A stretch of DNA of 64,000 nucleotides from Daphnia pulex (taxonomy: Eukaryota > Arthropoda > Branchiopoda > Diplostraca > Daphniidae): NCBI RefSeq assembly GCF_021134715.1, contig NC_060024.1, positions 13,814,974 to 13,878,973 on the forward strand. Direction: 5' to 3'. A program made the position numbers and the translations under genes. This document shows positions 26,309 to 54,950 of the stretch, in pieces. A model generated the notes under the pieces. The model was not told the origin of the DNA. It did not search any database and was given only the letters and a program-made list of their open reading frames with translations. Position 1 is the stretch's first letter; every line of letters begins with the position of its first letter.

Positions 26309-26602
26309 ATCTGAAGATTAATTTAAGTTGATTTTGTTTCTAGATTATGCTCCCATAGCTGCTGTCTAATTTGATACGTTGTTGCAGCCATATGCTGGTA
26401 AAAGACTTTTTGCATAAAGTTCAACTGTGATTGTACCTTGATGATGGTTTCATGTTGCGGAAGTTTTAAACAGTATGTTAAATTGTCCTTTTGCCAAATA
26501 ATAAACAAATCATCGCGATCGGGAAAGCAACGAGGAGGTGGGAGGGAGACTTAAATATTTAAAAGAAATGTTGAGGTGTTTTGTCGAAGAAATTGACTCG
26601 GT

Positions 26603-31678: not shown

Positions 31679-34563
31679 AAACCGGAAGAAGAAAAAAAAA
31701 CTCATTTTTAAAAATCTAACAAGTGAGCTTTGTTGGTGGAATAGTTATCGTCAGTTTTCACTAAAAATTTTCCACACAACAGCTGCCGATAAATGTTTAA
31801 AGAGATTTGCAAAGTAACTGGAACTGACTGTTTTGACAGCTGAAAATTATCGAAAATCCATCTAGCATTAGAAAAAAACAACGTCTAAGTAACACTTCGT
31901 TTGCGCGCAAGAAGGGCCTGATTTTGGAATTATTACACAGACACAGAGTTTAACACGCAGGTAGATTACTAGTAGATGATCTAAGAAAATAAGTCAATTG
32001 TCGGGTACCTCCGTATCTGGGCATAATCCCGTGGTAAGTGACAGTACATGTGTCGCTGCGGACGGAAGCGACTAGTCTAACTCGTCAGTGAAGTACGGCA
32101 AATTGTTTAGCAGCATAATATGCAGAGAAGCTAGATGAGTGTGGGTAGCGAAGATTAGGATGGAGCAGAAAAGTGGTAGAAGTCACTCTTCTGTTATGAA
32201 CAAAGGCCAGCATCAAGGATTTCTGTGCCAGGACCACACAATTCCAATAAAGAAACTGCGTTGTAGTTTGACATTGGCGGCTACTCGCGAAATCCAATGG
32301 CATATCACGGAACCTATTAATTGTTTAATTCCTAAAGCAAAGAACAGAAAAAGGTTTTAACATTGCAGTGAGGCCCATAAATACCCATGACCAAGGTGGA
32401 ATACAAAGTTTATTACATGATACAGCAAGAACATGGAAGCCCACCTTTACCTCAATCTGTTGTAGGCTTCCTATTACTCATTTCTTGCAGAGCTCTGTGA
32501 AGTGGGAGATACAGGGAATGGCAGCAATACAATTTCATGACGCAACAACACCGTCAAGTGTTCAAAGGTGTAAACATCTTTCAGGCAAGAACAAACCTGT
32601 TAATCAAATGGGTGTGAATTTTGAGATTATTTTATTGCATTGATGGATGACGAGGTTGTAAAATCGGAAAGTTATGCTTTTTACCTGTAACCATAGGTCC
32701 AATGCCACAACTATTGGGCAAAACAGCTTGAAGTTTTGTCTACGATGTGAGAGGATGATGCAGATGAAGCTGTGAGTTTAGGAAGTGCTGATCAATTTTT
32801 TCTTTAAATGGGGTCCACATTTAATCTGATGACTAGACGGCAGGTACATTGTCTAGAATTCCAAGTACAGTACACAATTAGTCGATTGGTCAAGTACACA
32901 GTGAGAGTGAATTATAGAAAATTTGCTACTATGTAGATAGAATAATCACAATAATCTTACATGTAAATAATTGTTTGATTTTGGGCAGTAAAACATTGAA
33001 AATTCGAATACAGAAGATGACATAACTTTTAACACATTTCGCCATTTTAAAAAACAATACCAACATCATCTAGCGGCACACTGGATAATCGTCTGAATCG
33101 TTAAAAACAACCACTAGATGATGCCAGTGCTTTCATGCAGACGAGATGAATGTTCCCAAACATGGTCCCGAGGTAGGAGCTGAAATGTGGAAATTGAAAG
33201 AATTCGAAAAGTGAAATCAATATTCAGCATAAGTTAACATTTATGTTTTTGAAACTAAAATTTGAAGGAACTTGGTAGTATGTTAACTAAATGTTTTCAC
33301 ACATATTGACCAGTTTATTTGTCATCATTTGCCACGTAATGACGACCATTGTTGAAGCTGGCCACAGGAATTCTAAGCTGTCATTAATCCTGCAGCTAAA
33401 AATGGAATCAATAATTGTAATATCACAGTAATCTTACAAAATTTCTTATCTTGTCTTTCAGATGCACGTTTTGTAAATGGTGAATCTCAAATTAATCAAA
33501 GAACTTGTCATTTCACTTCATTGACTTTCTCTTCCCATTTTAATATTGGTGAGCTGCAGTTTGAACATGTCAACTTAATAACATTTTCTACACCTACAAT
33601 TCATTGTGTTTGTCTTGAGGTTTCTGTTTGATTTTTCTAGATGATAAATTGCAAGAACTTACCGGAGATCTCTTCCTTTTTGTGGTTCCTTTCAATTGAT
33701 TCATTTGAGGTATTGCTTGCTGTCACTGCAATCTTGTTTTAAAATTGACATCTAAATACACTTTTTAGTTTAATCTCTCGCCGCTGTTCCAGACCTTATC
33801 CACTAGTGGAATATGCCGAGAGATGTTGAACTTATTCCAGGTATCTTCTCATTATCTTTTTTTTTACTGCATTCTTAGTTAGTCATTTTCTTTCATTTCA
33901 GGTTAACCCTTCGCCATCGTGCTATAGAAGTTGACGGTTAAAGAAGAGCTTGCTTTCGATCAATAACAATAAATTAGGTAGATGTAGATAAATTACAAGT
34001 GCATGGGCTCCCTTCTATTCTGTGGCCCCGTTTCCCTAACTAACCACCTACGGAGGGCTCTGGTCGAACGGGGACTTGGACGGTTCATGTTCTGAGGAAA
34101 ATTTTTGGAGGGACAAGAGTCTAATCAGGCAGTCTACTATGATCCCAAGCAAAAGTTGCCTCGCACTCTTCTTTCTTCTTCCTTGTCCGGGTAATCTCTC
34201 TGGGCAGAGGCAATCAAGGTAGTCTCCCCCTATCTAGATTGAATGTGCGAGGCCTAACAACTAATGGAAATTTGCGTTTGGTAATTTCAACTTCAGCAGT
34301 ATATCATTTATTTCATTTTATGTTAGATTATTTATTTAGCTAGCATGAAACAAAAAAAATTTCGCTTTGAAGCATATTGTTTATTATGTTATTATTCATG
34401 AATAAGTAGTTATGAGCAGGAGAGTTATGTAACAGGATTATTTATCAATTTTTTTCATAGAAATGTGGTTATATGGTGTAAGGAATAAATGTATAGGTGT
34501 ATGTTTATAAGATTATTGATTAATAAAGTTGAAGATATTTATAATTGTCGGTAAATTCGTTCG

Positions 34564-34685
34564 ACATTGACTGTGTGCGACCTCTATATTTCAGCTGCTT
34601 CTCAGCAAACAAAAGAACAACAAAAACGGGGGATAGGTGAGAGATGGCGCTCAGGTGGGCGGACCTTTCTCTTAGACACATCAGA
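34564..34685. repeat. left inverted terminal repeat of the DIRS-like element
   Basis: About 122 bp, matching the reverse complement of 37,122-37,243 with no difference I could see. A short unique tip (34,547-34,563) lies outside it; its complement reappears in the internal complementary region. Confidence 0.85.
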
Positions 34686-34714
34686 TCTCTTTTCGCTCTC
34701 GTTGTGCAAACATC

Positions 34715-35506
34715 ATGTCGGATCCCGAACAGTCAAGCGATTCTAGCTCAAATTCTAGTAGTTCAGGCTCCGACTCATCAAGAAGAGGAGGCGTAAAGAA
34801 ATTTCGTCTCTCAAGTGAAAAGTCAGCTAGTTTGGCCGACTGGGTCGTATCGGGTTTAGATGACACTCGAGCGAAAAGTGCTAGAGAGGCCTTTAGACCC
34901 AAGCTAAAGAAGAACGCCGACCTGCTGATCAACCCCAATCTAGATGATGCATTCTACATCCGGCTGAAGGCAGTTAAGTCATCTTCGGCAGCCAAGGTCA
35001 ACATCGACCCAATCGAGAAAATCTACAGAAATCAAACCTTCAAGATCCTTGACTTAGTCAAGCCCATCATGTTTCTAGCAAGTCGGCTCAAGAAAAAGAA
35101 GAAATCCCGAGCCGACGCCAAGGCGGTCAAAACAGCTCTGAAGCTCTGGGCGGTGGTGTACCACGACATCACGAACGCGCGACGCCGCAACATTCTGGCC
35201 CAAATCTACCCGCAGAATATTGGACTGCTAGACGACAAAGCTGTCCTGCCAACGGGTGGAGAACACCTCTTCGGTCCGAAGTTCACCCAGGCCCTGGTCG
35301 AGCAAGTGAAAACTCTGAACGCTCTCGAAAACGCGGGAGCCCCTCGCGCGCCCGGATCTAAAGGTGGTCATGATCAACGCCAATCGAATCGCGAATTCAG
35401 CCACCCCCCTTCATCTTCAGGCGGTCGCTATTCCAATTTTAAAGGATCTCGGTATGTCCAATCTATTCTCCTTTCCTTTTATGGGTTTTTTCTCTTGGAC
35501 GCATAG
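34715..35506 (+). pseudogene. gag-like ORF1 part of the DIRS-like element
   Basis: A Ser-rich acidic N-terminus is followed by a basic helical region and the GEHLFGPKF motif with an RRRNILAQIYP stretch. This resembles the first ORF of DIRS elements, which often has LFG.GF and RR..L..N signatures. A Gly/Ser/Arg-rich tail follows. It is read as the remains of a fossil gag-like protein. Confidence 0.6.
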
Positions 35507-35806
35507 CGCGTTTTTATGTTAAATTGTCAAGACCGGCTTTCGATCGGTGGAATTTATCAACGGTGGCCCCATATCTACAACTAAATTCTATTTGTGATCC
35601 CGTCCAATTATTTGGGAGCGGGTTGGCTCACCAAGTTGAACTTGATTGACTCATACTTGTCGGTCTCAATTTTTTTTTCCTATTTTTGAAGGCCTTTTGA
35701 AATTCCTTCAGTTTAAATGGGGGCGTTTTCTTCGAATCCGTGCCCCCCCCCCCCCTCCTTCGTTTTAAACTCAATGTGATGGGCGTTCACCAGACTAGTA
35801 AGGGGA

Positions 35807-36496
35807 GTGGTAACCTTCCTGCGAAAGAACGACCTTCGCCTCGAACTTTATTGGGATGAGATTTTAATCTCGGCGCACGGGTATAGCATTGCCCCAGCAC
35901 ACTTCCGTGCTCTTCGGATCCCCTTAGATTCCAAACCGGATGATCATCTGATCAGGTCAAGAGAGCAATTTACGCTTTCGGCACGTTTACAAGAGGCTCT
36001 TAGAAATCCTTCTTGGGTGGTTTCAAAGGCAGATTTTACATCTGGCCGTCCGCTCAGTTTTCCCGACGACGGATTTGTCCAGGGCGTCGGATGCATCCTT
36101 TTTAAAGAAGGGAGGGGGGCAGTATGAAACGAATAAGGACTAGGAAACTAGCCGAGATTGCCCTAGCAACACCACTGACCTCCCGTCCCTGATAGAGCTA
36201 GCAACGGAAATTCCGCTCCTTCTCTTCCCATCCAAGTAGGCTGATCTCCCCGTTGGGGGAGGGTCATCCATTGACAGGAACGAATCCATCTGTTTTATCG
36301 CTCGGTGGTTCTCCGGAGTTGTCTGGAAGAACGAACCTTTCCGAAGGAAATTATCGAGCTCATACTGGGAGCAATTCGATCGAATACGCACCCTGCATAC
36401 CAGTCCGCTGAGGTCGCTTGGAGCAGTTGGTGTAAGCAACGGAACCACAACTCTCTGTTGTCTGGCGTCAAGGAGGTATTAGCTTTTCCTTGTTAA
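35807..36496 (+). pseudogene. pol-region remnants of the DIRS-like element
   Basis: Fragments reminiscent of the DIRS reverse transcriptase/RNase H region (35,807-36,127) and of the N-terminal part of its tyrosine recombinase (36,305-36,496, with an AW.SWC pattern). They are short and incomplete, and most of the pol region is missing. Confidence 0.45.
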
Positions 36497-36728
36497 TTTT
36501 CATTCCAGCAAGAGCTGCAGCACGGTGGGAAGGAACCCTCCGACAACTATTCGTATGAAAGAGTATTGACGCCTTTTTAGACGAAATGCCGATTTGGTGG
36601 CGCATCCATGTTACACAGTCCAGCAGGGCTCCCACGAGCTCCAATTTTCAATCAGGCGTTGGTAACTGTCGACCATCAGGGGGTCTTATCTTATATCTTA
36701 TTATATCTGATTATATCTTGCTTTAAAG

Positions 36729-36840
36729 ACACAGTCAATGTCGAACGAATTTACCGACAATTTGTAAATTGTTCGAGCGAGCTTTAGCTCGCGATGAGCA
36801 ATTTGGATTGTTGGGGGAATGGAGTGAAGACATTGACTGT
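36729..36840. repeat. internal complementary region of the DIRS-like element
   Basis: Bases 36,729-36,762 are the complement of the element's left tip, and 36,759-36,840 are the complement of its right end including the right outer extension (37,233-37,314). The two halves share one AATT (36,759-36,762), which is therefore the circle-junction core. Confidence 0.85.
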
Positions 36841-37121
36841 CTTCTAACCACCCATCCCGCCCACTTCATTCCCGTTATCATTATGTTATTTAACTTGAAT
36901 TAGGTGCAGCATCCGATTATTGACGGCCCACTAATTCCTCTTTCCTTCTATCTTTTTGCTAGATACAACAATGATAGCCGCAGATCCAATTTCGACCGTG
37001 GCTCACCCAATCCCGCCAATAAAGGCGATCAGAACAACAACAACAAATAGGCCATTTGAACCATGGATCACCTTACACATTTTCCGTTAAGCCAGATCCA
37101 CAGTTTGTTTTTGCTTCCAAT

Positions 37122-37243
37122 TCTGATGTGTCTAAGAGAAAGGTCCGCCCACCTGAGCGCCATCTCTCACCTATCCCCCGTTTTTGTTGTTCTTTTGTTT
37201 GCTGAGAAGCAGCTGAAATATAGAGGTCGCACACAGTCAATGT
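37122..37243. repeat. right inverted terminal repeat of the DIRS-like element
   Basis: Complement of 34,564-34,685. It is followed by a right-hand extension (37,244-37,310) that is present otherwise only in the internal complementary region, the usual asymmetric arrangement of DIRS ends. Confidence 0.85.
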
Positions 37244-37611
37244 CTTCACTCCATTCCCCCAACAATCCAAATTGCTCATCGCGAGCTAAAGCTCGCTCGA
37301 ACAATTTACAAATTACCGAGTCAATTTCTTCGACAAAACACCTCAACATTTCTTTTAAATATTTAAGTCTCCCTCCCACCTCCTCGTTGCTTTCCCAATC
37401 GCGATGATTTGTTTATTATTTGGCAAAATGACAATTTAACATACTGTTCTAAACTTCCGCAACATGAAACCGTCATCAAGGTACAATCACAGTTCAACTT
37501 TATGCAAAAAGACTTTTACCACCAGCATATGGCTGCAACAACGTATCAAATTAGACAGCAGCTATGGGAGCATAATCTAGAAACAAAATCAAATTAAATT
37601 AATCTTCAGAT

Positions 37612-39507
37612 TCAGGCCATATGAAAAACTGTTTGGCAGAGTTGAATTGTGAAATTCAGCATCTCCATTGACACCGTCAACGTCAAATGGCTATCGAAAC
37701 CTACAGGGAAAAAGACAGATTGAGTTTCAGACAGAAATTATTTAATGACATCAAAGGACTTTTTTAAAGTTAATGAAGAAAGTTAGCCACATCTTACTGC
37801 AAGTTCAATGAATACACAAACATTATTACCTTGTCCACTATGCTGTTACCTGTTCATAGGATGCTATGTAGAACAAGCAGGAGAAGACATATTTCGGCAA
37901 CGTGAGACATAAATTTCAAGTCAAGTACTCTGAAAAAACTACTGTTTTTTTTTTATTACATGTTTAGGCAAGAAGTAATTTAGTAGCATGTGGTCCCACG
38001 ACATCAATGTAGCTATGACTTGGCTGTGTTCTCGATTTCTGCAATATATCAGCACAGCAGTCTGAGACCTGAACATAAACTAATAAAATCTTTAAAATCT
38101 ATTGCATTATTGCAGAGATATTGATCAATAAATTTACTTAAATTGGTCTGAAGTGCTTCTTCATGGGACGAGACGTACAGCAAACTCGTACAGCAGGTAC
38201 AGGTAATAATAGACGCCTAGACGGCATTCGGCAAAATGGACAGCAGTTTTGGCCCACGTGATCAGATTATTTCGCCAAAAGGAAATTACAGGAGGATGGA
38301 TTACGCATTGCCTATAGAATCACACATTAATATGTAACATTTAGTAAATTGAAGAAAAAGTTTCAAACAAGAATTACCAATTAGCCAATTAGTTTTTATG
38401 ACCATGATGAATTTGGAAGACATTTTCAGTCGGTGGCTGGAAAATGTGAAAATGTCTGAGTTTTGACGCGACGCTCTCGCCACCTGGCGGCCGGAGGACA
38501 TAAGCGCTACCGCGTATGCAAGGCATACTGATACCTGTCTGGAGCTGGAAATTGGTTGCATGCTTTTCATTCCGAAGTGGAAAATGCTATGAATGTAAGA
38601 AATAAATCACTAACAATATGAACAATAAACATGCCTGAACACATGCTTAGAGGCAAGAACGGAAGTTAGGTATAATAAAGCATGCCTATGTTTCAATAAA
38701 ATGGTAACCTTTCTTAGGATGCAAGAAGGGAATGCAAACTTAACAAATCTGACGTGATACCATACCACATTTAGTGGGTTGGAGGACAGAATGACAGATT
38801 TCTTTGGCAGGACATGGTCTTCTATGTTCTCAACATTTTTGGTTTTCTCTGAATATCAACCCAAAAATACTTATCAATAAAATACACACAAACACTGAGC
38901 AGACGCAAATCAAGTGAAACAATGCCAAAATGTCAGCACCATGAAAAGCTGAGAACAGCAAGCACATTAGATTGCTTTACCATAGACTGCTCCAACAAAC
39001 ACCAACCACCTGCTTCAAAGCAAAGTGAAATAATACAATTTTTAAAATGTTATTAGTTTAAAGTGAAACGCTACACTAAAGGGAGCATCAATTGGCACAA
39101 CCCAACAGAATAAATTAAAGAGTTCAAGCTTAAATTGATGAAGATATTGTTCTACTTAAATAAAGATCAAAACAAAATCACCCAGGTAATGGACTAGAGA
39201 AAATTTGTAACTAGGAAGATCCATTAGAAAACAATTCACTTGATAAATATTGAATAAAACTACAATTTCAACTCAATTTACCAATTGCTAGTCTTCCCAC
39301 ACAGGCAAGTAGATAAGGTTTACTTCAATTGCCATCAACCACATACCAAGGTAAGACATTAATAGAAACCACTGTAATTAAGTCACACATTTTCCAAAGG
39401 ACAATAACTGACAGCTAAATTTCCAGTTACCTTGTTGTAATCCACGGAGATCTGGCGAACCGTCGACCTGGATCGATCACGTGCTGGTAATGGAATGTCC
39501 TTCCCAC
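37612..39507 (-). pseudogene. relic or unrecognised spliced gene of unknown function, central-arm copy
   Basis: Reverse-complement counterpart of the segments described at 24,410-26,308 and 55,843-57,734, with the same exon-like pieces and terminal stop on the - strand. It is nearly identical to the third-arm copy. Identity is unknown. Confidence 0.3.
38472..38494 (-). promoter_or_regulatory. CTCF-like motif, central arm
   Basis: On the - strand it reads CCGGCCGCCAGGTGGCGAG, the same as in the third arm. One base differs from arm 1 (GGCGAG against GGCGCG), just outside the strongest core positions. Confidence 0.42.
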
Positions 39508-40398
39508 TGTAATGCAGTCAGAAATGTTTTAAGTAAACATCTTCTATTTGATATACTTGTTTAACAAATAAAATCCTTGTTACCTTTTCTAGATCTATGA
39601 ATTAAATCTACAATTTCAATAAATTTTCTTCAAAGTTTGACGCGACGAACTGCAAATTCTCATTACACCTTTCGAAGTCCTATGAGAAAATTTGCAAATG
39701 AACAGCAGAGAGCAGGGCCAAGGCCAAGGCCAAACGTTCTTTGGTGGAAGATGAGTGGCGTTGGCGTTGCCAATTTGGTGCAACTCGGCCGTCTAATAAA
39801 ATATATTTTGCAACTCTTCCAATATATAATTTTTGTTTTAAAAAATATGAATTCCAAGATTAATTACAGATTAAAATCACTGTTTTTTTTTCTCTCTATA
39901 AGAGTAGGAATGTTTCTTAGGAATTAGTTACTTGGGAATGTTAGTTGCATTGGATAACTTTTCGAAAGCATTACAGACATAGGATGTTAATCTATAGCTC
40001 GTTGAGGAGTGAAACGGACTGAAAAAGACACTCCACTTACAGACAACAATAAAACATTAGCTGCCTCTAAATGAGATTGGAGCTAATCCAACTGATGGTG
40101 TAAATGGGTAAGTAGGGAATCTGCTTTGGAGCCAGGCGGTCGCTCAGGCTAGCAATCGAAAAATGTAATGTCCACTTCAAGTTGGTCGTTCTTCTGGCAG
40201 GCATATGCATTCCAGGGCTTGGAAAGTTTGCGTCGACGACAATCGGGCTGGCGTGATTTACGTTTTTGAATTGACCCAGTCCAGATTTTCTTGACTCCTG
40301 AGTCCTGACTACGAGTAAGCCTCGTAAATAACTCCTTGATACGATCAGGCTGTAGGGGTATCCAGTCGACGTAAATAAGGGATCAACCAACGACAAAG

Positions 40399-40772
40399 TT
40401 TTGGTTTAAAAAAATCAACATCACAGCTATCCGTGATTAAATGACAAACACTCAGTTCGCTCATGGCGTCGAGTCTTTCCAAGTTGAAATGTTATTGCTG
40501 GAGGTTGTAGACAAAGATGTGTTCCAAGTGAGGTACGTTTCCTTCTAGACCAGCAAGTTTGATAAAAGCCAACGGGTTCTCTACCTACATACTATCAAAT
40601 ATAACAAATGTGTATCACCAATATTATCAGTACCTACAACATAACATACATACTACCTACATAACAAATCAAACCAAACCTTAGTTTCTCGATGTCCGCA
40701 GCTCGTGTTCGATAGAACAGACTTACAAGGTCGGTGGTTAGTTCAATTCCCATGGAGATGAAAGGTCTCATT
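40399..40772 (-). pseudogene. LRR gene relic, central-arm copy
   Basis: Reverse-complement counterpart of 54,577-54,950. It carries the MGIELTTDLVSLFYRTRAAD segment and the LRR-core segment LEHIFVYNLQQ on the - strand, separated by non-coding sequence. Broken as in the other arms. Confidence 0.55.
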
Positions 40773-41588
40773 GTTTCGCTTCTTCACTGTAATTGATCAA
40801 CAGTGTTTATTTCTAATAATTGATCCACATCGACAGCCATACGGGCGGCTGGGCATTCACACCGATCTCACTTTGTAGTCCCTGTTGTTGCTCCCATTAA
40901 AAAAATAAAATAAAATCCTCACCGACATCACATTCGGGTAAAAGGAGCGGAATTCAAAAGGCGGAAAGGTGTCAGGGAAGCAAGAACATATACGTCCGTG
41001 AGGTAGCGTTTGGGGTCCACTGAGAGTGAACATAACAGAGACGGTTTGCCATTTAGGCATTTACCCTGGCGGAAAAAACCTCCCGCCGATTCCAACGCTG
41101 TTGAGACCGTTCGAAAAACAAAAAAAAAAGACTGGACAAAGGCGCTGTCCTGCGGCATGAGGTCCACTCATTAAAGTTTATCTTGTAAAAAAGCAATCGA
41201 TCTAGAAACTGCAGCAAAATTCGTCGTGTTGATATCAGCATAAATTTTTCGCTCCACTATCAAATTGTGCCAGCCTCTGTTTTCTTTGCCTTCCTTGTTG
41301 ATGTTACCAAGTTACGAATCTTAAAAATCAATGGGACCCCATACTGCCTTATTACGACGTCCTCCCTCTATGACAATAACTCCGCCTAGATCAGTATTTT
41401 TTGAAAAATTTAAACAGCTAAATTGTCAGTGAAATAAAAATAATTATTTACTCAATCTCGACTTCACTTTAATACACAACATGAACATTAATCACAGCTT
41501 ACACTATGATTTGTGACTAAATATTTTTTTCTTTAAGCTTCAAATCTATAATATTACGAAATTAATAATATGTAACTAGTGTTTTTTT

Positions 41589-41736
41589 TCTCCTTTATTA
41601 AGAAATTTCTACTTTTATGTTGATCAATAAACCATCGGGGGTCACATGAAAATTCGTTTAGAATAGAACTCGAATAGAGAGGGGTTGAATTCAGGACTGC
41701 CCAACGTAAGAGTAGAAATTCTTAATTAAGGAGAAA
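41589..41736. mobile_element. 148-bp MITE, central-arm copy
   Basis: Same element as at 22,209-22,356, in reverse orientation, with both ~33-bp terminal inverted repeats retained. Its presence at the equivalent place in each arm shows insertion before duplication. Confidence 0.7.
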
Positions 41737-41959
41737 CAATATCAGTATCATAATAATTGATCATTGTTTGTAATTATGTAGTTATTTCATTAGCAGTAAT
41801 CATTTAAAGTCAATAGATTTTAAATCAAATCAAATTATGCAAAAACAAGCCCGATTGGCGGTTGCTAACAACCTACGACACACCCAAACCTTGATAAAGA
41901 CCGGCAGTTAATGGAAAGTTCAGTTAACGATTGATTTTCATCATCTTTGAAATACAAAA

Positions 41960-43132
41960 ATGGCACGAGGACAGCAAAACCGAAATGGAACCGGCACGAG
42001 AAAATTGACGAAAAAGCAGAAGCTGGCGCTTGCATCGAAAAGGCTTACCCGCGTTCAAGAAAAAAAAGCCATTTTTATTACAAAACATTTGGCTAGAGCC
42101 CTCCTCCTTTTCAAACGAGAATTAAGGCAGTTTCTCAAGTCATGGGGATTGGCCCCTCGCAAATATCAAGACACGTCCACCCTTCTCAAGAAAATGATTA
42201 ACTATAATCAACAGATACCGAATTTCTTTGGAACAACCAAACGTCGAGTGGAAGTCGCTACCGCAACCCTACGTAAGGCCAATTATGGCAGAAACGCCGT
42301 CTTCCACGGTGTTTTACCCGTTGTCTGGAGGGAATGGAAAAAGTTTCTACGAGCTTGGATTACAGTGGCGAACATGATTGGGGCCAAGTCGCTAGTCCAA
42401 AAGTTACGAAAAATGATGACGCGTCTACTTTCCTCGCACGGACGACGACCCTACACCGTGTCGAAAAACACTATTTTCATGAGTGTGGCTTCAGAAGAAA
42501 CGACTAAATGGACATCCTCCAAACGATCGGCCGCCATCGCGATTGGGCACATAGTTTTCGACACTTTTCTTCAAGATGTGGCACCGAACCTTCGCACATT
42601 CATCGATTCAAATAACATCAGAGCGAATTGGACTTCCGTGTTGGACGCATATGAGCTGAGTAAGTTCATTTTGGACAAATGCAGCGCAGACTGCTTTTTC
42701 GTTCCGCCCGGGACGCAAGATGAAGATGAATTGATAACAAGACTGGAAGGAGCGATGGAGGGGCGGCATGCGGTAAGTCATGATATGCAAGAGAACGTCT
42801 TCTATAATTGGGAAATATACTTAAAGGATTGTGTTTATATCCTGACAGCGATTCACTGTCCAGAAGCAGCCGCACGCGTCCAGAAACGCCTTGATCGCCT
42901 CATCGCATCCAGAGACCAGGCCAATCAGCAATTCTCTGCATTAACAGCTCGCCGCGTCACTACCGTCCATCGCAGCTTCCTGCAAGCCAAAAAATCGCCC
43001 CAACTCAAAGGTAAGCCAGGAAAGTGGCCGAGGCCTAATAGTCGATGGTTGAAAGGAATGTGTCCGTCCCAAACGATCGGGGACGCCTTTAGATTCCGAC
43101 TCAAGAACAAGGTTCACAAGATTCTTCATTAA
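41960..43132 (+). CDS. putative tandem-HEPN protein, central-arm copy (390 aa, unrecognised family)
   Basis: One uninterrupted frame of 390 codons from ATG 41960 (context ACAAAAATGG), with AATAAA at 43,271-43,276, about 140 bases after the stop. The N-terminus (1-50) is very basic. The protein has two similar halves. Gly110-Arg111-Asn112-Ala-Val-Phe-His116 is followed by Trp126 and Phe129-Leu130. Gly268-Arg269-His270-Ala-Val-Ser-His274 is followed by Trp284 and Tyr287-Leu288. Both motifs fit the HEPN RNase signature R-(N/D/H)-x3-H, and the spacing of the downstream aromatics is the same, which suggests an internal duplication. No signal peptide or membrane helix is visible. HEPN domains in known proteins cut RNA or bind nucleotides; that this one does is inference. 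It is identical in protein sequence to the copy at 52,217-53,389. Confidence 0.75.
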   Translation: MARGQQNRNGTGTRKLTKKQKLALASKRLTRVQEKKAIFITKHLARALLLFKRELRQFLKSWGLAPRKYQDTSTLLKKMINYNQQIPNFFGTTKRRVEVATATLRKANYGRNAVFHGVLPVVWREWKKFLRAWITVANMIGAKSLVQKLRKMMTRLLSSHGRRPYTVSKNTIFMSVASEETTKWTSSKRSAAIAIGHIVFDTFLQDVAPNLRTFIDSNNIRANWTSVLDAYELSKFILDKCSADCFFVPPGTQDEDELITRLEGAMEGRHAVSHDMQENVFYNWEIYLKDCVYILTAIHCPEAAARVQKRLDRLIASRDQANQQFSALTARRVTTVHRSFLQAKKSPQLKGKPGKWPRPNSRWLKGMCPSQTIGDAFRFRLKNKVHKILH

Positions 43133-43828
43133 CCGAATTTCGATTCTCTAAATTCTCTTGATTGTTGCTGCTAAGTCGCTGATACGTTGATCGTAATTCT
43201 GAATACAAAAGTTGTCGATTTGAAAATTTTCTATCTAGTCTCGTCTTTCATTCAGTTGCAATTAGTTATGAATAAATCAATGCTGTACTAAAAATTAAAT
43301 GGATAACTCGTGAGAAGCAAAAATACGAAGCGCTAAAATGATCTGACAAGAAAGCCAGTCTAATCTCACATATCTCAGAATTCTATCGATCCTCACTGAA
43401 CAAATTTGTTTCCCAACTGGGGCTGGTATAACAAAGAGCAAAACAACACACACTTGGCACTTCCAAACAAATACAAGGGAAATTGTCAGATACATACCCG
43501 TTAGATATACTGTTGAAGACATAGTGGCATTCTCCATCATGAAATTGCAGTCAGCCAACCATCTAACTTTACTGCTGTTTGGTCACCATCCAACTGCTTG
43601 TTGAAAAGGGTAGACAAATTCACGCGGGATGTGGTGGTGAGCCCCAATGTTGGCACACCTTCAAACCTGGAACACAAAAAGATTGCACAGCAGTTAGGAT
43701 AACAACTTTGGAAATAAAACAGTAAATTAGTCTCAATTTGAATTTGTTCTTTACGCTTGCATTCTAAAAACACAAAAATCTTACTGGATAATAATAAAAG
43801 ATTGATTTAAGAAAAAAAAAAGGTTTTC

Positions 43829-44437
43829 ATGGAAAGTCATCGCTGTGTGAGAATGATCAAGTCAAGATCATCAATCCAGCCCTCTCCTTCCAATCTGGAA
43901 CGTGTAGGCAAAATTCAGGCTTCCATTAACTTTTACATTTTTCTCATTGGCTTCTCACTTTTCTTCATCTGGGATATTTTGTTATACATTGTGGAGCTAT
44001 GGTCCATGACGATTCACATGTAGACTGAGGAAATTGCTATTTCAACACACATTGTGTCTAGCTTCAGGAGTACAGCTAGTTCAACCTTGTTACGAGATAC
44101 TACTGTTTGTTCTTCAACGGATTCTTCCAAAGGCACAGACAATTCTAAAAGTCAAACAGTACTTGGAAAGTATAGACTTGTCGTGCATCAGCTAAATGAT
44201 GCTGTAACTTTGGCTAAGAATCACACGAAAAATTTCCCAATAGTTCCACCATTTTCAGTATGGAGATATTATAAGTCATATGCAAGAGAAACCATCGACG
44301 CCTCACCTCTCGTACCGATGAGATCTTATTCTAAGAGATGTAGAATGCTTAACTGTTTTCTCACATTTTATCGGTTACTACCTACACATTTTCAACCACG
44401 CGTAAGGGGACGGGATATTTGTGATAACAACACATGA
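43829..44437 (+). pseudogene. chemoreceptor-like (gustatory receptor-like) gene relic, central-arm copy
   Basis: One frame runs through 43,829-44,437 with a single interruption (TAG 44,021-44,023). Before it lies a strong membrane helix (FYIFLIGFSLFFIWDILLYI). After it come a Ser/Thr-rich loop and KYRLVVHQLNDAVTLAKN, like the region before the late helices of arthropod gustatory receptors. GTAGAC/GTAAAT at the interruption in different arms could be a splice donor with a very short intron. The other helices and the C-terminal TYhhhhhQF motif were not found. It may be a fragment or a non-homologous look-alike. Confidence 0.33.
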
Positions 44438-44930
44438 TTTTTAGATCAGGCAATTTAGAACAAACAAAAGAATACTAACGTCAATGAACTTTTTAGGCAA
44501 TTAATTCAATTTCACTCTACTTTGTAAAACTACTCCTCTCCCCACGACTGGTTAATGTAAAGGTAACACCGGCGGTCACCCAGCCACAATTTGTTTCAAT
44601 CACGATCTCTGCAGAACAACAGCAGAGTGGCAGATTGGCAGGGTGGTGGGTGGAGAATGCATGCAGACGAACTTCCGTCTTAACAGCGATGCCATTTTAG
44701 CTCGACGGAGTTTAATCAAATGTTTGATAAGTCAATCAGAGAGTCAATCAAAACAATCTCAATTAAATTCATGTGTCGTATCAAAGTAGACTTAAATAAT
44801 AATAATTAATTTAAAAAAATAGAAATACATCAATAATATTTTATTTTACCAACATTTTCCGATCGGACAAAAAGTTTCGATTTCGTCTTCTTTATCTCAA
44901 AACAAATAAGATTTTCGATAAGAATGACAT

Positions 44931-45170
44931 GAGTTCCACTCTGCTGGTTTCTCTGTGGGTAAACCTGAGAAAATATGAAAATGGACTAGAAGTGACTGAA
45001 GAGATTGCCTTGCATGTTTTGATCGTAAAGGATTATTGCTGTCTATGGAAATCTGAAATGAATCCGGATTTGTTATGTTAGAAAGTGGAAACGTCCAATG
45101 TCTCACAGCAGATAACGGAATAAATAAACAGTCCAAAAAAACTCGCTATCTTATATTGACTTAAAATATC
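44931..45170. other. unique sequence between the central arm and the LRR pseudogene
   Basis: A 240-bp stretch with no counterpart at the ends of the other arms. It contains an AATAAATAAA run near 45,118 and no coding signal. It is probably the upstream flank that came with the truncated LRR gene. Confidence 0.4.
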
Positions 45171-45178
45171 TTTATAAT
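45171..45178 (+). promoter_or_regulatory. TATA box of the truncated LRR gene
   Basis: TTTATAAT lies 79 bases before the ATG, as in LRR gene 2 (78 bases), and is followed by the conserved GTCGTCGTC...CACTGAGCTTC leader. The promoter is therefore kept although the gene is lost. Confidence 0.5.
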
Positions 45179-45249
45179 AAAGGCATTTGGGCCGTCGTCG
45201 TCAAGTGCGCACTGAGCTTCAGCAGCGAACAACATTTCTCAGTCCCAAC

Positions 45250-45458: not shown

Positions 45459-48400
45459 CGCACATACAGTCAATCAAGACAGGGCAGGTCCATTATTAAT
45501 TGACTTTGAATAGGGAGATTTCCTGGGCAAGGAAGAAGAGATAATAGTGCGTTGTGCTGAGTATTACCGTATTACGTACATATGGATGTCACAAAATTCG
45601 CATATATAATGACCAAAAATTGTACAAATAATAGGAACAGTTGGCCGAAAAGTGGAAGCCAGGTGCTACGGAACCGTAAGTCAACTGTTCGATCCTCGGG
45701 GACAACATTTTATTTATTTATTTTTTAAGATAGTTATTTAGAGTTTGAAAATAATAAATACACGATTTTGTAAATTTAATAAAAAGAGATTCCTGTTCTA
45801 AACGCAATTGATTTTTTCGGTGCAAGTTTTAACAGATCCATATAACTATTTTTTGTTTTCCTCATTCTTTAGCGGATTACTTGTTGTAATTCGCACATAC
45901 AGTCAATCAAGACAGGGCAAGACCATCTTTATTGAATTTGCATAGGGAGATTACCTTGGTAAGGAATAAGAGTGAGTATAGTGAGAATAACCATATTTTG
46001 TACATAATGGACTAAACTGATAAAATACGCATATATAATGACCAAAAATTCGCTAAACTAAGAGGAACAGTTGTGCCAGTGGTTGGAGCCTTGTGCTACG
46101 GTACCGTGAGCCAGCTGTTCCATACCCGGGATAAGACTTTTATTTTTTTATTTTTTAGTAAGTTTTTTGAACTTGGAAAATATTATATACATGATTTTGT
46201 CAATTTAATAAGCAGATATTCCTTTTCTAGACGCAATTTTTTTTGTGCAAGTTTTAACAGATCCATCTATTTTTTGTTTTCCTCATTATTTAGCGGATTA
46301 CTTGTTGTAATTCGCACCTACAGTCAATCAAGACAGGGCAAGTCCATCTTGATTGACTTTGCATAGGGAGATTACCTTGGCAAGGTAGAAGAGAGAAGAG
46401 TGCGTAGTGAGAATAACAATATTTTGTATGTTATAGACTAAACTGATAAAATACGCATATATAATGACCAAAAATTCGCTTAACTAAGAGGAACAGTTGT
46501 GCCAGTGGTTGGAGCCTTGTGCCTTGTGCCTTGTGCTACGGTACCGTGAGCCAGCTGTTCCATACCCGGGGTAAGACTTTTTTTTTTATTATTTTTTAGT
46601 AAGTTTTTTGAACTTGGAAAATATTATATACATGATTTTGTCAATTTAATAAACAGATATTCCTGTTCTAGACGCAATTTTTTTTTTCTGTGCAAGAATT
46701 AACAGATCCATTTAACTATTTTTTGTTTTCCTCATTATTTAGCGGATTACTTGTTGTAATTCGCACATACAGTCAATCAAGACAGGGCAGACCATCTTGA
46801 TTGAATTTGTATAGGGAGATTACCTTGGCAAGGAATAAGAGTGAATATAGTGAGAATAACCATATTTTGTCCGTTATAGACTAAACTGATAAAATACGCA
46901 TATATAATGACCAAAAATTCGCTTAACTAAGAGGAACAGTTGTGCCAGTGGTTGGAGCCTTGTGCCTTGTGCCTTGTGCTACGGTACCGTGAGCCAGCTG
47001 TTCCATACCCGGGGTAAGACTTTTTTTTTATTATTTTTTAGTAAGTTTTTTGAACTTGGAAAATATTATATACATGATTTTGTCAATTTAATAAACAGAT
47101 ATTCCTGTTCTAGACGCAATTTTTTTTTTCTGTGCAAGAATTAACAGATCCATTTAACTATTTTTGGTTTTCCTCATTATTTAGCGGATTACTTGTTGTA
47201 ATTCGCACATACAGTCAATCAAGACAGGGCAGACCATCTTGATTGAATTTGTATAGGGAGATTACCTTGGCAAGGAATAAGAGTGAATATAGTGAGAATA
47301 ACCATATTTTGTATGTTATAGACTAAACTGATAAAATACGCATATATAATGACCAAAAATTCGCTTAACTAAGAGGAACAGTTGTGCCAGTGGTTGGAGC
47401 CTTGTGCCTTGTGCCTTGTGCTACGGTACCGTGAGCCAGCTGTTCCATACCCGGGGTAAGACTTTTTATTTTTTTTATTTTTTAGTAAGTTTTTTGAACT
47501 TGGAAAATATTATATACATGATTTTGTAAATTTAATAAACAGATATTCCTGTTCTAGACGCAATTTTTTTTTCTGTGCAAGTTTTAACAGATCCATTTAA
47601 CTATTTTTTGTTTTCCTCATTATTTAGCGGATTACTTGTTGTAATTCGCACCTACAGTCAATCAAGACAGGGCAAGTCCATCTTGATTGACTTTGCATAG
47701 GGAGATTACCTTGGCAAGGTAGAAGAGAGAAGAGTGCGTAGTGAGAATAACAATATTTTGTATGTTATAGACTAAACTGATAAAATACGCATATATAATG
47801 ACCAAAAATTCGCTTAACTAAGAGGAACAGTTGTGCCAGTGGTTGGAGCCTTGTGCCTTGTGCCTTGTGCTACGGTACCGTGAGCCAGCTGTTCCATACC
47901 CGGGGTAAGACTTTTTTTTTATTATTTTTTAGTAAGTTTTTTGAACTTGGAAAATATTCTATACATGATTTTGTCAATTTAATAAGCAGATATTCCTTTT
48001 CTAGACGCAATTTTTTTTGTGCAAGTTTTAACAGATCCATCTATTTTTTGTTTTCCTCATTATTTAGCGGATTACTTGTTGTAATTCGCACCTACAGTCA
48101 ATCAAGACAGGGCAGACCATCTTGATTGAATTTGTATAGGGAGATTACCTTGGCAAGGAATAAGAGTGAATATAGTGAGAATAACCATATTTTGTATGTT
48201 ATAGACTAAACTGATAAAATACGCATATATAATGACCAAAAATTCGCTTAACTAAGAGGAACAGTTGTGCCAGTGGTTGGAGCCTTGTGCCTTGTGCTAC
48301 GGTACCGTGAGCCAGCTGTTCCATACCCGGGGTAAGACTTTTTATTTTTTTTATTTTTTAGTAAGTTTTTTGAACTTGGAAAATATTATATACATGATTT

Positions 48401-50309
48401 TGTAAATTTAATAAACAGATATTCCTGTTCTAGACGCAATTTTTTTTTCTGTGCAAGTTTTAACAGATCCATTTAACTATTTTTTGTTTTCCTCATTATT
48501 TAGCGGATTACTTGTTGTAATTCGCACCTACAGTCAATCAAGACAGGGCAAGTCCATCTTGATTTACTTTGCATAGGGAGATTACCTTGGCAAGGTAGAA
48601 GAGAGAAGAGTGCGTAGTGAGAATAACAATATTTTGTATGTTATAGACTAAACTGATAAAATACGCATATATAATGACCAAAAATTCGCTTAACTAAGAG
48701 GAACAGTTGTGCCAGTGGTTGGAGCCTTGTGCCTTGTGCCTTGTGCTACGGTACCGTGAGCCAGCTGTTCCATACCCGGGGTAAGACTTTTTATTTTTTT
48801 TATTTTTTAGTAAGTTTTTTGAACTTGGAAAATATTATATACATGATTTTGTAAATTTAATAAACAGATATTCCTGTTCTAGACGCAATTTTTTTTTCTG
48901 TGCAAGTTTTAACAGATCCATTTAACTATTTTTTGTTTTCCTCATTATTTAGCGGATTACTTGTTGTAATTCGCACCTACAGTCAATCAAGACAGGGCAA
49001 GTCCATCTTGATTTACTTTGCATAGGGAGATTACCTTGGCAAGGTAGAAGAGAGAAGAGTGCGTAGTGAGAATAACAATATTTTGTATGTTATAGACTAA
49101 ACTGATAAAATACGCATATATAATGACCAAAAATTCGCTTAACTAAGAGGAACAGTTGTGCCAGTGGTTGGAGCCTTGTGCCTTGTGCCTTGTGCTACGG
49201 TACCGTGAGCCAGCTGTTCCATACCCGGGGTAAGACTTTTTATTTTTTTTATTTTTTAGTAAGTTTTTTTAACTTGGAAAATATTATATACATGATTTTG
49301 TAAATTTAATAAACAGATATTCCTGTTCTAGACGCAATTTTTTTTTCTGTGCAAGTTTTAACAGATCCATTTAACTATTTTTTGTTTTCCTCATTATTTA
49401 GCGGATTACTTGTTGTAATTCGCACCTACAGTCAATCAAGACAGGGCAAGTCCATCTTGATTGACTTTGCATAGGGAGATTACCTTGGCAAGGTAGAAGA
49501 GAGAAGAGTGCGTAGTGAGAATAACAATATTTTGTATGTTATAGACTAAACTGATAAAATACGCATATATAATGACCAAAAATTCGCTTAACTAAGAGGA
49601 ACAGTTGTGCCAGTGGTTGGAGCCTTGTGCCTTGTGCCTTGTGCTACGGTACCGTGAGCCAGCTGTTCCATACCCGGGGTAAGACTTTTTTTTTATTATT
49701 TTTTAGTAAGTTTTTTGAACTTGGAAAATATTATATACATGATTTTGTCAATTTAATAAGCAGATATTCCTTTTCTAGACGCAATTTTTTTTGTGCAAGT
49801 TTTAACAGATCCATCTATTTTTTGTTTTCCTCATTATTTAGCGGATTACTTGTTGTAATTCGCACCTACAGTCAATCAAGACAGGGCAGACCATCTTGAT
49901 TGAATTTGTATAGGGAGATTACCTTGGCAAGGAATAAGAGTGAATATAGTGAGAATAACCATATTTTGTATGTTATAGACTAAACTGATAAAATACGCAT
50001 ATATAATGACCAAAAATTCGCTTAACTAAGAGGAACAGTTGTGCCAGTGGTTGGAGCCTTGTGCCTTGTGCCTTGTGCTACGGTACCGTGAGCCAGCTGT
50101 TCCATACCCGGGGTAAGACTTTTGTTTTTTTTTAAATTTTTTTGTAAGTTTTTTGAACTTGGAAAATATTATATACATGATTTTGTCAATTTAATAAGCA
50201 GATATTCCTGTTCTAGACGCATTTTTTTTTCTGTGCAAGTTTTAACAGATCCATTTAACTATTGTTTGTTTTCCTCATTCTTCAGCGGATTACTTGCTGT
50301 AATTCGCAC
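45459..50309 (+). repeat. right tandem array, about 11 copies of the tRNA/SINE-like unit, inverted relative to the left array
   Basis: CATACCCGGG occurs at 46121, 46561, 47004, 47446, 47895, 48322, 48771, 49220, 49669 and 50103, plus a diverged first unit near 45,690, giving periods of 427-449 bp. On the + strand each unit has hairpin 2, a TATATAATG stretch, a degenerate A-box (TGTGCCAGTGG), CCTTGTG repeats, a B-box-like element and a long T-run. It ends with hairpin 1 (GCGGATTAC / GTAATTCGC). The first unit has the best B-box (GTTCGATCCT). The units match the outer units of the left array better than its homogenised core. Confidence 0.95.
46742..46804. repeat. paired hairpins at the array unit boundary (representative)
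   Basis: Hairpin 1 has arms GCGGATTAC (46,742-46,750) and GTAATTCGC (46,756-46,764), 9 bp with one G-T pair and a 5-base loop. After eight bases, hairpin 2 has arms TCAATCAAGA (46,773-46,782) and TCTTGATTGA (46,795-46,804), a perfect 10-bp stem with a 12-base loop. The pair recurs in every right-array unit. Hairpin 2 is weakened in the left-array core. Confidence 0.75.
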
Positions 50310-50886: not shown

Positions 50887-51520
50887 TCATGTGTTGTTAT
50901 CACAAATATCCCGTCCCCTTACGCGTGGTTGAAAATGTGTAGGTAGTAACCGATAAAATGTGAGAAAACAGTTAAGCATTCTACATCTCTTAGAATAAGA
51001 TCTCATCGGTACGAGAGGTGAGGCGTCGATGGTTTCTCTTGCATATGACTTATTATATCTCCTGGAGATATTATAGTATGGAGATAATCTCCATACTGAA
51101 AATGGTGGAACTATTGGGAAATTTTTCGTGTGATTCTTAGCCAAAGTTACAGCATCATTTAGCTGATGCACGACAAGTCTATACTTTCCAAGTACTGTTT
51201 GACTTTTAGAATTGTCTGTGCCTTTGGAAGAATCCGTTGAAGAACAAACAGTAGTATCTCGTAACAAGGTTGAACTAGCTGTACTCCTGAAGCTAGACAC
51301 AATGTGTGTTGAAATAGCAATTTCCTCAGTCTACATGTGAATCGTCATGGACCATAGCTCCACAATGTATAACAAAATATCCCAGATGAAGAAAAGTGAG
51401 AAGCCAATGAGAAAAATGTAAAAGTTAATGGAAGCCTGAATTTTGCCTACACGTTCCAGATTGAAAGGAGAGGGCTGATGATCTTGACTTGATCATTCTC
51501 ACACAGCGATGACTTTCCAT
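50887..51520 (-). pseudogene. chemoreceptor-like relic, third-arm copy
   Basis: Counterpart of 43,829-44,437 on the - strand, almost identical. It differs by a small insertion near 51,060-51,085 of ATATCTCC/GGAGATAT-type sequence just after the putative coding segment. The same in-frame interruption is present. Confidence 0.32.
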
Positions 51521-52216
51521 GAAAACCTTTTTTTTTTCTTAAATCAATCTTTTATTATTATCCAGTAAGATTTGTGTGTTTTTAGAATGCAAGCGTAAAG
51601 AACAAATTCAAATTGAGACTAATTTACTGTTTTATTTCCAAAGTTGTTATCCTAACTGCTGTGCAATCTTTTTGTGTTCCAGGTTTGAAGGTGTGCCAAC
51701 ATTGGGGCTCACCACCACATCCCGCGTGAATTTGTCTACCCTTTTCAACAAGCAGTTGGATGGTGACCAAACAGCAGTAAAGTTAGATGGTTGGCTGACT
51801 GCAATTTCATGATGGAGAATGCCACTATGTCTTCAACAGTATATCTAACGGGTATGTATCTGACAATTTCCCTTGTATTTGTTTGGAAGTGCCAAGTGTG
51901 TGTTGTTTTGCTCTTTGTTATACCAGCCCCAGTTGGGAAACAAATTTGTTCAGTGAGGATCGATAGAATTCTGAGATATGTGAGATTAGACTGGCTTTCT
52001 TGTCAGATCATTTTAGCGCTTCGTATTTTTGCTTCTCACGAGTTATCCATTTAATTTTTAGTACAGCATTGATTTATTCATAACTAATTGCAACTGAATG
52101 AAAGACGAGACTAGATAGAAAATTTTCAAATCGACAACTTTTGTATTCAGAATTACGATCAACGTATCAGCGACTTAGCAGCAACAATCAAGAGAATTTA
52201 GAGAATCGAAATTCGG

Positions 52217-53389
52217 TTAATGAAGAATCTTGTGAACCTTGTTCTTGAGTCGGAATCTAAAGGCGTCCCCGATCGTTTGGGACGGACACATTCCTTTCAA
52301 CCATCGACTATTAGGCCTCGGCCACTTTCCTGGCTTACCTTTGAGTTGGGGCGATTTTTTGGCTTGCAGGAAGCTGCGATGGACGGTAGTGACGCGGCGA
52401 GCTGTTAATGCAGAGAATTGCTGATTGGCCTGGTCTCTGGATGCGATGAGGCGATCAAGGCGTTTCTGGACGCGTGCGGCTGCTTCTGGACAGTGAATCG
52501 CTGTCAGGATATAAACACAATCCTTTAAGTATATTTCCCAATTATAGAAGACGTTCTCTTGCATATCATGACTTACCGCATGCCGCCCCTCCATCGCTCC
52601 TTCCAGTCTTGTTATCAATTCATCTTCATCTTGCGTCCCGGGCGGAACGAAAAAGCAGTCTGCGCTGCATTTGTCCAAAATGAACTTACTCAGCTCATAT
52701 GCGTCCAACACGGAAGTCCAATTCGCTCTGATGTTATTTGAATCGATGAATGTGCGAAGGTTCGGTGCCACATCTTGAAGAAAAGTGTCGAAAACTATGT
52801 GCCCAATCGCGATGGCGGCCGATCGTTTGGAGGATGTCCATTTAGTCGTTTCTTCTGAAGCCACACTCATGAAAATAGTGTTTTTCGACACGGTGTAGGG
52901 TCGTCGTCCGTGCGAGGAAAGTAGACGCGTCATCATTTTTCGTAACTTTTGGACTAGCGACTTGGCCCCAATCATGTTCGCCACTGTAATCCAAGCTCGT
53001 AGAAACTTTTTCCATTCCCTCCAGACAACGGGTAAAACACCGTGGAAGACGGCGTTTCTGCCATAATTGGCCTTACGTAGGGTTGCGGTAGCGACTTCCA
53101 CTCGACGTTTGGTTGTTCCAAAGAAATTCGGTATCTGTTGATTATAGTTAATCATTTTCTTGAGAAGGGTGGACGTGTCTTGATATTTGCGAGGGGCCAA
53201 TCCCCATGACTTGAGAAACTGCCTTAATTCTCGTTTGAAAAGGAGGAGGGCTCTAGCCAAATGTTTTGTAATAAAAATGGCTTTTTTTTCTTGAACGCGG
53301 GTAAGCCTTTTCGATGCAAGCGCCAGCTTCTGCTTTTTCGTCAATTTTCTCGTGCCGGTTCCATTTCGGTTTTGCTGTCCTCGTGCCAT
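52217..53389 (-). CDS. putative tandem-HEPN protein, third-arm copy (390 aa, unrecognised family)
   Basis: Mirror image of 41,960-43,132 about the axis at 47,674. The 390-residue translation is identical, including both R-x4-H motifs (Arg111/His116 and Arg269/His274). Upstream, leader and poly(A) regions (AATAAA on the - strand near 52,078) are also conserved, so the copy should be expressible if its partner is. The identity of the pair reflects recent duplication or ongoing conversion, so sequence identity alone is not evidence of selection. Divergence from the arm 1 copy is informative, because both motifs survive there too. Confidence 0.75.
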   Translation of the reverse strand: MARGQQNRNGTGTRKLTKKQKLALASKRLTRVQEKKAIFITKHLARALLLFKRELRQFLKSWGLAPRKYQDTSTLLKKMINYNQQIPNFFGTTKRRVEVATATLRKANYGRNAVFHGVLPVVWREWKKFLRAWITVANMIGAKSLVQKLRKMMTRLLSSHGRRPYTVSKNTIFMSVASEETTKWTSSKRSAAIAIGHIVFDTFLQDVAPNLRTFIDSNNIRANWTSVLDAYELSKFILDKCSADCFFVPPGTQDEDELITRLEGAMEGRHAVSHDMQENVFYNWEIYLKDCVYILTAIHCPEAAARVQKRLDRLIASRDQANQQFSALTARRVTTVHRSFLQAKKSPQLKGKPGKWPRPNSRWLKGMCPSQTIGDAFRFRLKNKVHKILH

Positions 53390-53612
53390 TTTTGTATTTC
53401 AAAGATGATGAAAATCAATCGTTAACTGAACTTTCCATTAACTGCCGGTCTTTATCAAGGTTTGGGTGTGTCGTAGGTTGTTAGCAACCGCCAATCGGGC
53501 TTGTTTTTGCATAATTTGATTTGATTTAAAATCTATTGACTTTAAATGATTACTGCTAATGAAATAACTACATAATTACAAACAATGATCAATTATTATG
53601 ATACTGATATTG

Positions 53613-53762
53613 TTTCTCCTTAATTAAGAATTTCTACTCTTACGTTGGGCAGTCCTGAATTCAACCCCTCTCTATTCGAGTTCTATTCTAAACGAATTTT
53701 CATGTGACCCCCGATGGTTTATTGATCAACATAAAAGTAGAAATTTCTTAATAAAGGAGAAA
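53613..53762. mobile_element. 148-bp MITE, third-arm copy
   Basis: Same element and orientation as at 22,209-22,356, with both terminal inverted repeats kept. No coding capacity. Confidence 0.7.
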
Positions 53763-54576
53763 AAAAACACTAGTTACATATTATTAATTTCGTAATATTA
53801 TAGATTTGAAGCTTAAAGAAAAAAATATTTAGTCACAAATCATAGTGTAAGCTGTGATTAATGTTCATGTTGTGTATTAAAGTGAAGTCGAGATTGAGTA
53901 AATAATTATTTTTATTTCACTGACAATTTAGCTGTTTAAATTTTTCAAAAAATACTGATCTAGGCGGAGTTATTGTCATAGAGGGAGGACGTCGTAATAA
54001 GGCAGTATGGGGTCCCATTGATTTTTAAGATTCGTAACTTGGTAACATCAACAAGGAAGGCAAAGAAAACAGAGGCTGGCACAATTTGATAGTGGAGCGA
54101 AAAATTTATGCTGATATCAACACGACGAATTTTGCTGCAGTTTCTAGATCGATTGCTTTTTTACAAGATAAACTTTAATGAGTGGACCTCATGCCGCAGG
54201 ACAGCGCCTTTGTCCAGTCTTTTTTTTTTGTTTTTCGAACGGTCTCAACAGCGTTGGAATCGGCGGGAGGTTTTTTCCGCCAGGGTAAATGCCTAAATGG
54301 CAAACCGTCTCTGTTATGTTCACTCTCAGTGGACCCCAAACGCTACCTCACGGACGTATATGTTCTTGCTTCCCTGACACCTTTCCGCCTTTTGAATTCC
54401 GCTCCTTTTACCCGAATGTGATGTCGGTGAGGATTTTATTTTATTTTTTTAATGGGAGCAACAACAGGGACTACAAAGTGAGATCGGTGTGAATGCCCAG
54501 CCGCCCGTATGGCTGTCGATGTGGATCAATTATTAGAAATAAACACTGTTGATCAATTACAGTGAAGAAGCGAAAC

Positions 54577-54950
54577 AATGAGACCTTTCATCTCCATGGG
54601 AATTGAACTAACCACCGACCTTGTAAGTCTGTTCTATCGAACACGAGCTGCGGACATCGAGAAACTAAGGTTTGGTTTGATTTGTTATGTAGGTAGTATG
54701 TATGTTATGTTGTAGGTACTGATAATATTGGTGATACACATTTGTTATATTTGATAGTATGTAGGTAGAGAACCCGTTGGCTTTTATCAAACTTGCTGGT
54801 CTAGAAGGAAACGTACCTCACTTGGAACACATCTTTGTCTACAACCTCCAGCAATAACATTTCAACTTGGAAAGACTCGACGCCATGAGCGAACTGAGTG
54901 TTTGTCATTTAATCACGGATAGCTGTGATGTTGATTTTTTTAAACCAAAA
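54577..54950 (+). pseudogene. LRR gene relic, third-arm copy
   Basis: Reads MGIELTTDLVSLFYRTRAAD, then after an intron-like or degenerate stretch FIKLAGLEGNVPHLEHIF and LERLDAMSELSVCHL. Alignment with LRR genes 1 and 2 is clear at the VFYRTR and LRR-core segments. A stop codon lies after LQQ and no signal peptide or LRRNT cysteine pattern remains. Short frames that follow to about 55,280 may be further decayed LRR sequence. Confidence 0.55.

Follow-up and report, generated by a model that had tools for sequence, protein, structure and literature searches.

The window considered here is a stretch of 64,000 nucleotides of the Daphnia pulex genome (contig NC_060024.1, assembly GCF_021134715.1), in which a 390-codon open reading frame (ORF) is found within one arm of a palindrome. 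The ORF, its copies and the features related to them are the following:

41960-43132, plus strand: gene copy of arm 2, a single-exon ORF of 390 aa, the ORF under study
52217-53389, minus strand: gene copy of arm 3, an ORF of 390 aa whose DNA is identical to the arm 2 copy
20793-21959, minus strand: gene copy of arm 1, an ORF of 388 aa whose protein is 94% identical to that of arm 2
37945-43886, plus strand: core of palindrome arm 2, containing the gene, 100% complementary to 51463-57404
51463-57404, minus strand: core of palindrome arm 3, containing the identical gene, complementary to the arm 2 core
19005-26612, minus strand: arm 1, about 94-95% identical to arm 2 (44930-37304)
41893-41925, plus strand: promoter-like GATAAAG ... 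TCAGTT, starts 27 bases apart, common to all three arms, as read from the sequence
42065-42454, plus strand: HEPN-like domain A, about residues 36-165, from the repeat, profile comparison and half-domain model; computed pI 11.8
42290-42307, plus strand: motif 1, R111-N-A-V-F-H116, a pattern match
42482-42949, plus strand: HEPN-like domain B, about residues 175-330, from the repeat and profile comparison; computed pI 5.0
42764-42781, plus strand: motif 2, R269-H-A-V-S-H274, a pattern match
43271-43276, plus strand: AATAAA, a possible polyadenylation signal, 139 bases beyond the stop codon

All three copies of the gene sit in inverted arms, and arms 2 and 3 form perfect complements (100%) of each other along 5942 bases. 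The original prediction had described an intronless gene for a 390-residue product carried by each palindrome arm, and this is borne out by the identical copy in arm 3 and the 94%-identical copy in arm 1. In the promoter-like segment, we take GATAAAG to be a TATA-like box and TCAGTT to be initiator-like, both being consensus names for elements of putative function. Between arms 1 and 2, the reading frame contains 38 base differences and one 6-base gap. Seventeen of the 38 differences are synonymous, where about 23% would be expected (binomial P 0.002, with the classes counted by hand, transition bias ignored, and gene conversion having acted on the copies), an excess that fits weak purifying selection. 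Eighteen of the 38 lie in roughly the first 27 codons, which together with the 5' leader form a patch (41928-42028 vs 21897-22016) far more diverged between these two arms than the flanks on both sides; its sharp edges suggest that recombination or conversion took place with a third, unseen copy. The DNA of arms 1 and 2 shows zero differences between codon 211 and the stop codon, so the fact that arm 1 retains motif 2 is not evidence of constraint, and none of the 38 differences lies inside motif 1, which spans six codons only. The claim that both motifs persist in the diverged arm 1 is thus true, but weak for these same reasons.

Proteins of the HEPN superfamily carry an R-x4-6-H motif, commonly in the form R-N/D/H-x3-H. 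The pattern R[NDH]xxxH has just two matches in the 390-residue protein, R111-H116 and R269-H274, both of which are kept in the three copies (3/3) and conform to the R-x4-6-H spacing. The surroundings of the two motifs are shared exactly as had been described, with a Gly before the Arg, Ala-Val after it, a Trp ten residues beyond the His (W126 and W284) and an aromatic-Leu pair at +13/+14 (F129-L130 and Y287-L288). When the protein is shuffled, two or more R[NDH]xxxH matches appear in 760 of 200,000 cases, so that the number of motifs by itself is suggestive, not decisive; even one GR[NDH]AVxH appears in 5 of 200,000, the latter pattern having been picked after the sequence was seen. Compared with each other, the two halves of the protein give a Smith-Waterman score of 65, which none of 5000 shuffles reaches (maximum 57). 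Among the ungapped offsets from 60 to 329 the best is 158 (score 65, runner-up 35), which superposes both motifs, and the hhalign score between the halves is 28.9 with a shuffle maximum of 19.5 (200 runs). The ancient internal duplication proposed from the equal spacing of the motifs is therefore upheld by a repeat score beyond all the shuffles and with the motifs in register. Identity between the halves is 21% overall, which argues that the duplication is old and that both motifs outlasted it. The origin of the two motifs by chance was ruled out as an explanation, on account of the internal repeat (0/5000 shuffles) and of the profile shuffles described below, in which the motif was kept and the scores nonetheless stayed below the real one.

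The two halves were merged into one profile and compared with HEPN families by means of hhalign. The Swt1 set comprised 16 bacterial Swt1-family domains from plasmids (52 plasmid records carry a Swt1 match, and 16 of them were used), while the other families were represented by bacterial genome loci taken by Pfam family, among the matches listed; for HEPN, HepT and Abi_2 the matching places outnumber the loci in the sets. Rows that were short or had an internal stop were dropped (DUF4145 1 of 7, HEPN 4 of 20, RiboL-PSP 1 of 13, HepT 3 of 20), and one locus below the cut-off (L168) was left out of the Apea set. Against the 16 Swt1 domains the merged profile scores 28.7 (P 4.6e-4) over 81 columns, and in this alignment GR(N/H)AVxH falls on RNxwAH, motif on motif. 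The score is 26.5 with the combined Swt1 set (n=44), 22.7 (P 0.006) with 28 PF18731 sequences alone, and 19.7 with the five most divergent PF18731 sequences. The seven non-Swt1 families range, among the matches listed, from 7.8 to 19.8, that is, RiboL-PSP 19.8, HepT 15.0, Apea 12.5, HEPN (PF05168) 12.5, Abi_2 11.3, AbiU2 10.7 and DUF4145 7.8. It is important to note that Swt1 stands out in this way for the merged halves only. Taken singly, half A scores 11.5 and half B 15.9 with Swt1, neither in register, and HMMER comparison of the halves with the 16-sequence Swt1 profile is marginal, at best 7.7 bits.

Several controls bear on the merged result. In a set-up where the real Swt1 profile scores 24.3, its column-shuffled versions reach a maximum of 18.9 in 150 runs, and 19.2 in another 150 runs in which the motif block was kept (0/150 reach the real score). 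When half B is shuffled outside the motif within the merged profile, the maximum is 23.4 against 28.2 for the real one (0/120). The way of merging the halves has some influence, since three of four alignment modes lead to 28.2 and the fourth, globalpair, to 24.1, and to 19.6 with the combined Swt1 set. The eight HEPN family sets score between 9 and 34 against one another (among the matches listed), which places the Swt1 match within the upper part of the accepted HEPN-HEPN range; many accepted HEPN pairs do no better than shuffles, so a low score does not exclude the other families. That both halves are HEPN domains, as first proposed, is supported by the in-register match of the merged profile to bacterial Swt1 HEPN. 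The profile-profile search suggested as a check on that proposal thus gave a positive answer for the merged halves, but not for single halves, and the HEPN reading is unproven because no curated HEPN model matches the protein and the structure models, discussed below, are of low confidence.

The Swt1 family has already been treated in these animals. In a 2013 survey, the sections on this family describe catalytically active Swt1-family HEPN domains close to the bacterial versions in Daphnia, dictyostelids and Naegleria, and an expansion of Swt1-type HEPN to 46 copies in Daphnia, Ava_2192-like in bacterial terms, which are predicted to be active, defensive RNases; eukaryotic members of the group are termed 'solos' (PMC3710099). 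The statement that no known family has this layout was consequently an overstatement. What holds of it is that a two-HEPN layout from Daphnia does not appear in those sections, and no description of such a protein was found in the open-licence PubMed Central literature. The protein resembles the reported expansion in that it comes from Daphnia, is multicopy, has intact motifs and no other detected domain, and has Swt1 HEPN as its best profile match; it differs in having two HEPN domains, whereas the members of the expansion are called solos, the comparison being one of descriptions only (PMC3710099). Canonical Swt1, a eukaryotic PIN-domain endonuclease, also has two Swt1-family HEPN domains per chain according to the same sections, but its HEPN motifs are described as inactive, whereas those of the 390-aa protein are intact (PMC3710099). 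Moreover, canonical Swt1 has a PIN domain N-terminal to the dyad, whereas neither PIN nor WW was detected here. Bacterial Swt1/DUF499 proteins (Ava_2192 type, PF18731) share the motif register and the 81-column profile match, and differ in that 21 of the 28 PF18731-matched open frames are 1089-1237 aa long whereas the dyad stands alone here, and in that the Pfam model itself gives no match. Since the closest resemblance is to a bacterial-type family whose expansion in water fleas is on record, the gene would be a variant of something known and not a new system; its newest part is the two-domain layout with both motifs retained. The reading that we favor, with a confidence somewhat above even, is that the ORF represents a genuine animal gene, amplified recently, and that its product is a tandem HEPN pair derived from internal duplication of a domain of ~155 residues, with Swt1 as the nearest of the families tested. 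Its place is most likely within the Daphnia Swt1-type HEPN expansion.

Half A and both tails of the protein are strongly basic, while half B is acidic (computed pI 11.8 for half A and 5.0 for half B), and this charge contrast would suit packing of one half against the other as well as binding of RNA. HEPN RNases act as dimers, in which the R-x4-H motif of each partner contributes to one composite active site. By analogy with them, the 390-aa protein is probably an RNase acting as an intramolecular pseudo-dimer. Within the single chain, the basic half A would pack against the acidic half B to give a permanent pseudo-dimer of this presumed geometry, and the composite active site built from both domains would then cut RNA gripped by the basic tails, both activity and target being putative. 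Its role, to judge from other expanded HEPN families, may be RNA cleavage in defence or stress. A protein that works in a comparable manner is Cas13, in which one polypeptide contains two R-x4-H HEPN domains and a single composite active site; the 390-aa protein differs from it in lacking guide-RNA domains, and no sequence relation is claimed.

An unlikely alternative is that the HEPN-fold dyad has lost its RNA-cutting activity and binds or senses RNA instead, the motifs being retained because the copies are of recent origin and have undergone gene conversion. The strongly basic character of the tails and of half A would suit RNA binding, and the sole divergence available, that of arm 1, does not probe the motifs, owing to the identity from codon 211 onward. 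The sections of the survey devoted to Swt1 proper indicate that it likewise has a HEPN dyad, judged inactive, and binding or sensing rather than cutting has been proposed there for canonical Swt1 and for nematode expansions (PMC3710099). Against this, the full R-x4-H is retained in both halves despite their 21% identity, which argues for selection on the motifs since the ancient duplication.

Somewhat less probable still is that the product is an alpha-helical protein of another fold, in which the conserved GR-AV-H pattern of the repeat resembles HEPN by chance. In favor of this, no HEPN match for the protein was found in Pfam (including HEPN_Swt1), NCBIfam, PADLOC or PHROGs, and PF18731, the Swt1 HEPN model, matches neither the whole protein nor its halves, its curated cut-off not being reached. 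Besides the HEPN-like halves no domain was detected; neither PIN nor WW was found in the ORF, and PIN, at E<=0.05, in none of the frames of 37305-45200. DMP19 and similar models gave sub-threshold matches (best E 0.0054, arm 1 copy, below its cut-off), which were rejected as unrelated. Direct relatives were found neither in viral contigs, genome contigs nor plasmids (the last with three chance matches, E 6-9), and 299 genomes of one phylum yielded a single short match at E 0.07 and no usable relative. A PDB search with the half profile gave TAL-effector matches with whole-sequence E down to 1.3e-6, and these were dismissed because they sum over many repeats and no single stretch passes alone.

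The structure models, which are poor for want of crustacean relatives, are divided on the matter. A HEPN domain is a bundle of four to five helices, one of which begins with the motif. The whole-protein model is all-helical with a pLDDT of 44.5, and the model of half A, computed with both halves as alignment, is also all-helical (pLDDT 52.7, pTM 0.47). In this low-confidence half model the helices span 6-36, 47-59, 69-84, 94-114 and 118-135, and the motif, at 85-91, lies between the third and the fourth, as would fit HEPN. Modelling of the whole protein, in contrast, runs a single helix, 94-140, through motif 1, which does not fit HEPN, while motif 2 falls where one helix (253-271) gives way to the next (274-297). 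The structure prediction that had been proposed as a check thus points both ways at low confidence, towards HEPN for motif 1 in the half model and for motif 2, and away from it for motif 1 in the full-length model. A Foldseek search of the PDB with the low-confidence model returned nothing at E<=0.001. The lack of curated HEPN matches, the poor models, one of them with motif 1 inside a long helix, and the absence of a significant structural match, together with the failure of single halves to match Swt1, are the points in favor of another fold; nevertheless, the Swt1 match takes in 81 columns rather than the motif alone, and its score exceeds those of the motif-kept shuffles and of the half-B shuffles without exception.

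The arms carrying the gene adjoin tandem arrays, located at 8318-13860, 14450-19004 and 45459-50309, the last inverted relative to the other two. Their units measure 443-449 bp (34 anchor matches), and the array consensus has an A-box-like TTGGCCGAGTGG, a B-box-like CTGTTCAATACCC and then a T-run; we take the former to be a tRNA Leu/Ser-like A-box and the latter a B-box-like element. No tRNA was found in the arrays by ARAGORN, nor by Rfam at E<=1. The arrangement of all three gene copies in inverted arms beside such arrays would suit a gene carried as payload by a selfish amplified element, the harm of its RNase being neutralised by tRNA-like Pol III transcripts acting as decoys or antidotes, but this idea is very improbable, given that the link to the arrays is one of proximity only, that no canonical tRNA was found, and that Pfam detects no transposase in a six-frame search of arm 2 (37305-45200). 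For the element-control system that the original prediction had put forward as a candidate, physical proximity to the palindromes and arrays is likewise the one link, and it speaks neither for nor against the idea. Equally improbable as the payload idea is the wider proposal of a self-contained selfish or regulatory module, in which a tandem HEPN RNase would be amplified in gene-converted palindromes together with tRNA Leu/Ser-like Pol III arrays whose transcripts are substrate, decoy or antidote.

If the favored reading of a tandem HEPN pair is true, the protein would be a compact two-domain HEPN protein from an animal, a single-chain counterpart of the HEPN dimer that occurs in nature, and would supply the HEPN defence expansion predicted in water fleas with a concrete candidate member. 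It would also represent such a gene caught in the course of being copied and homogenised within palindromes.

Other elements of the window, and of the sequences compared, may be recorded here. An insertion at 34567-37303 interrupts arm 2; it has rearranged repeat ends and a 263-aa ORF (34715-35506) that resembles a DIRS-type retrotransposon gag and gives no Pfam match. Across all frames of 37305-45200 and 26400-37304, Pfam detected no transposon protein (E<=0.05). A nested second set of perfect inverted repeats is formed by 26603-34546 and 59664-62458 (2854 and 2795 bases, 100%), and 26400-34560 gave no Pfam match at E<=0.05. Among the bacterial PF18731 matches, three divergent ones (L123, L124 and L125), with open frames of 195, 222 and 411 aa, have a distinct N-terminal helix sequence and possibly constitute a separate Swt1-like HEPN subfamily. 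Finally, leucine-rich-repeat ORFs are located outside the palindromes, at 4408-5379 and 6949-7437, the first of them above the Pfam LRR_8 cut-off.
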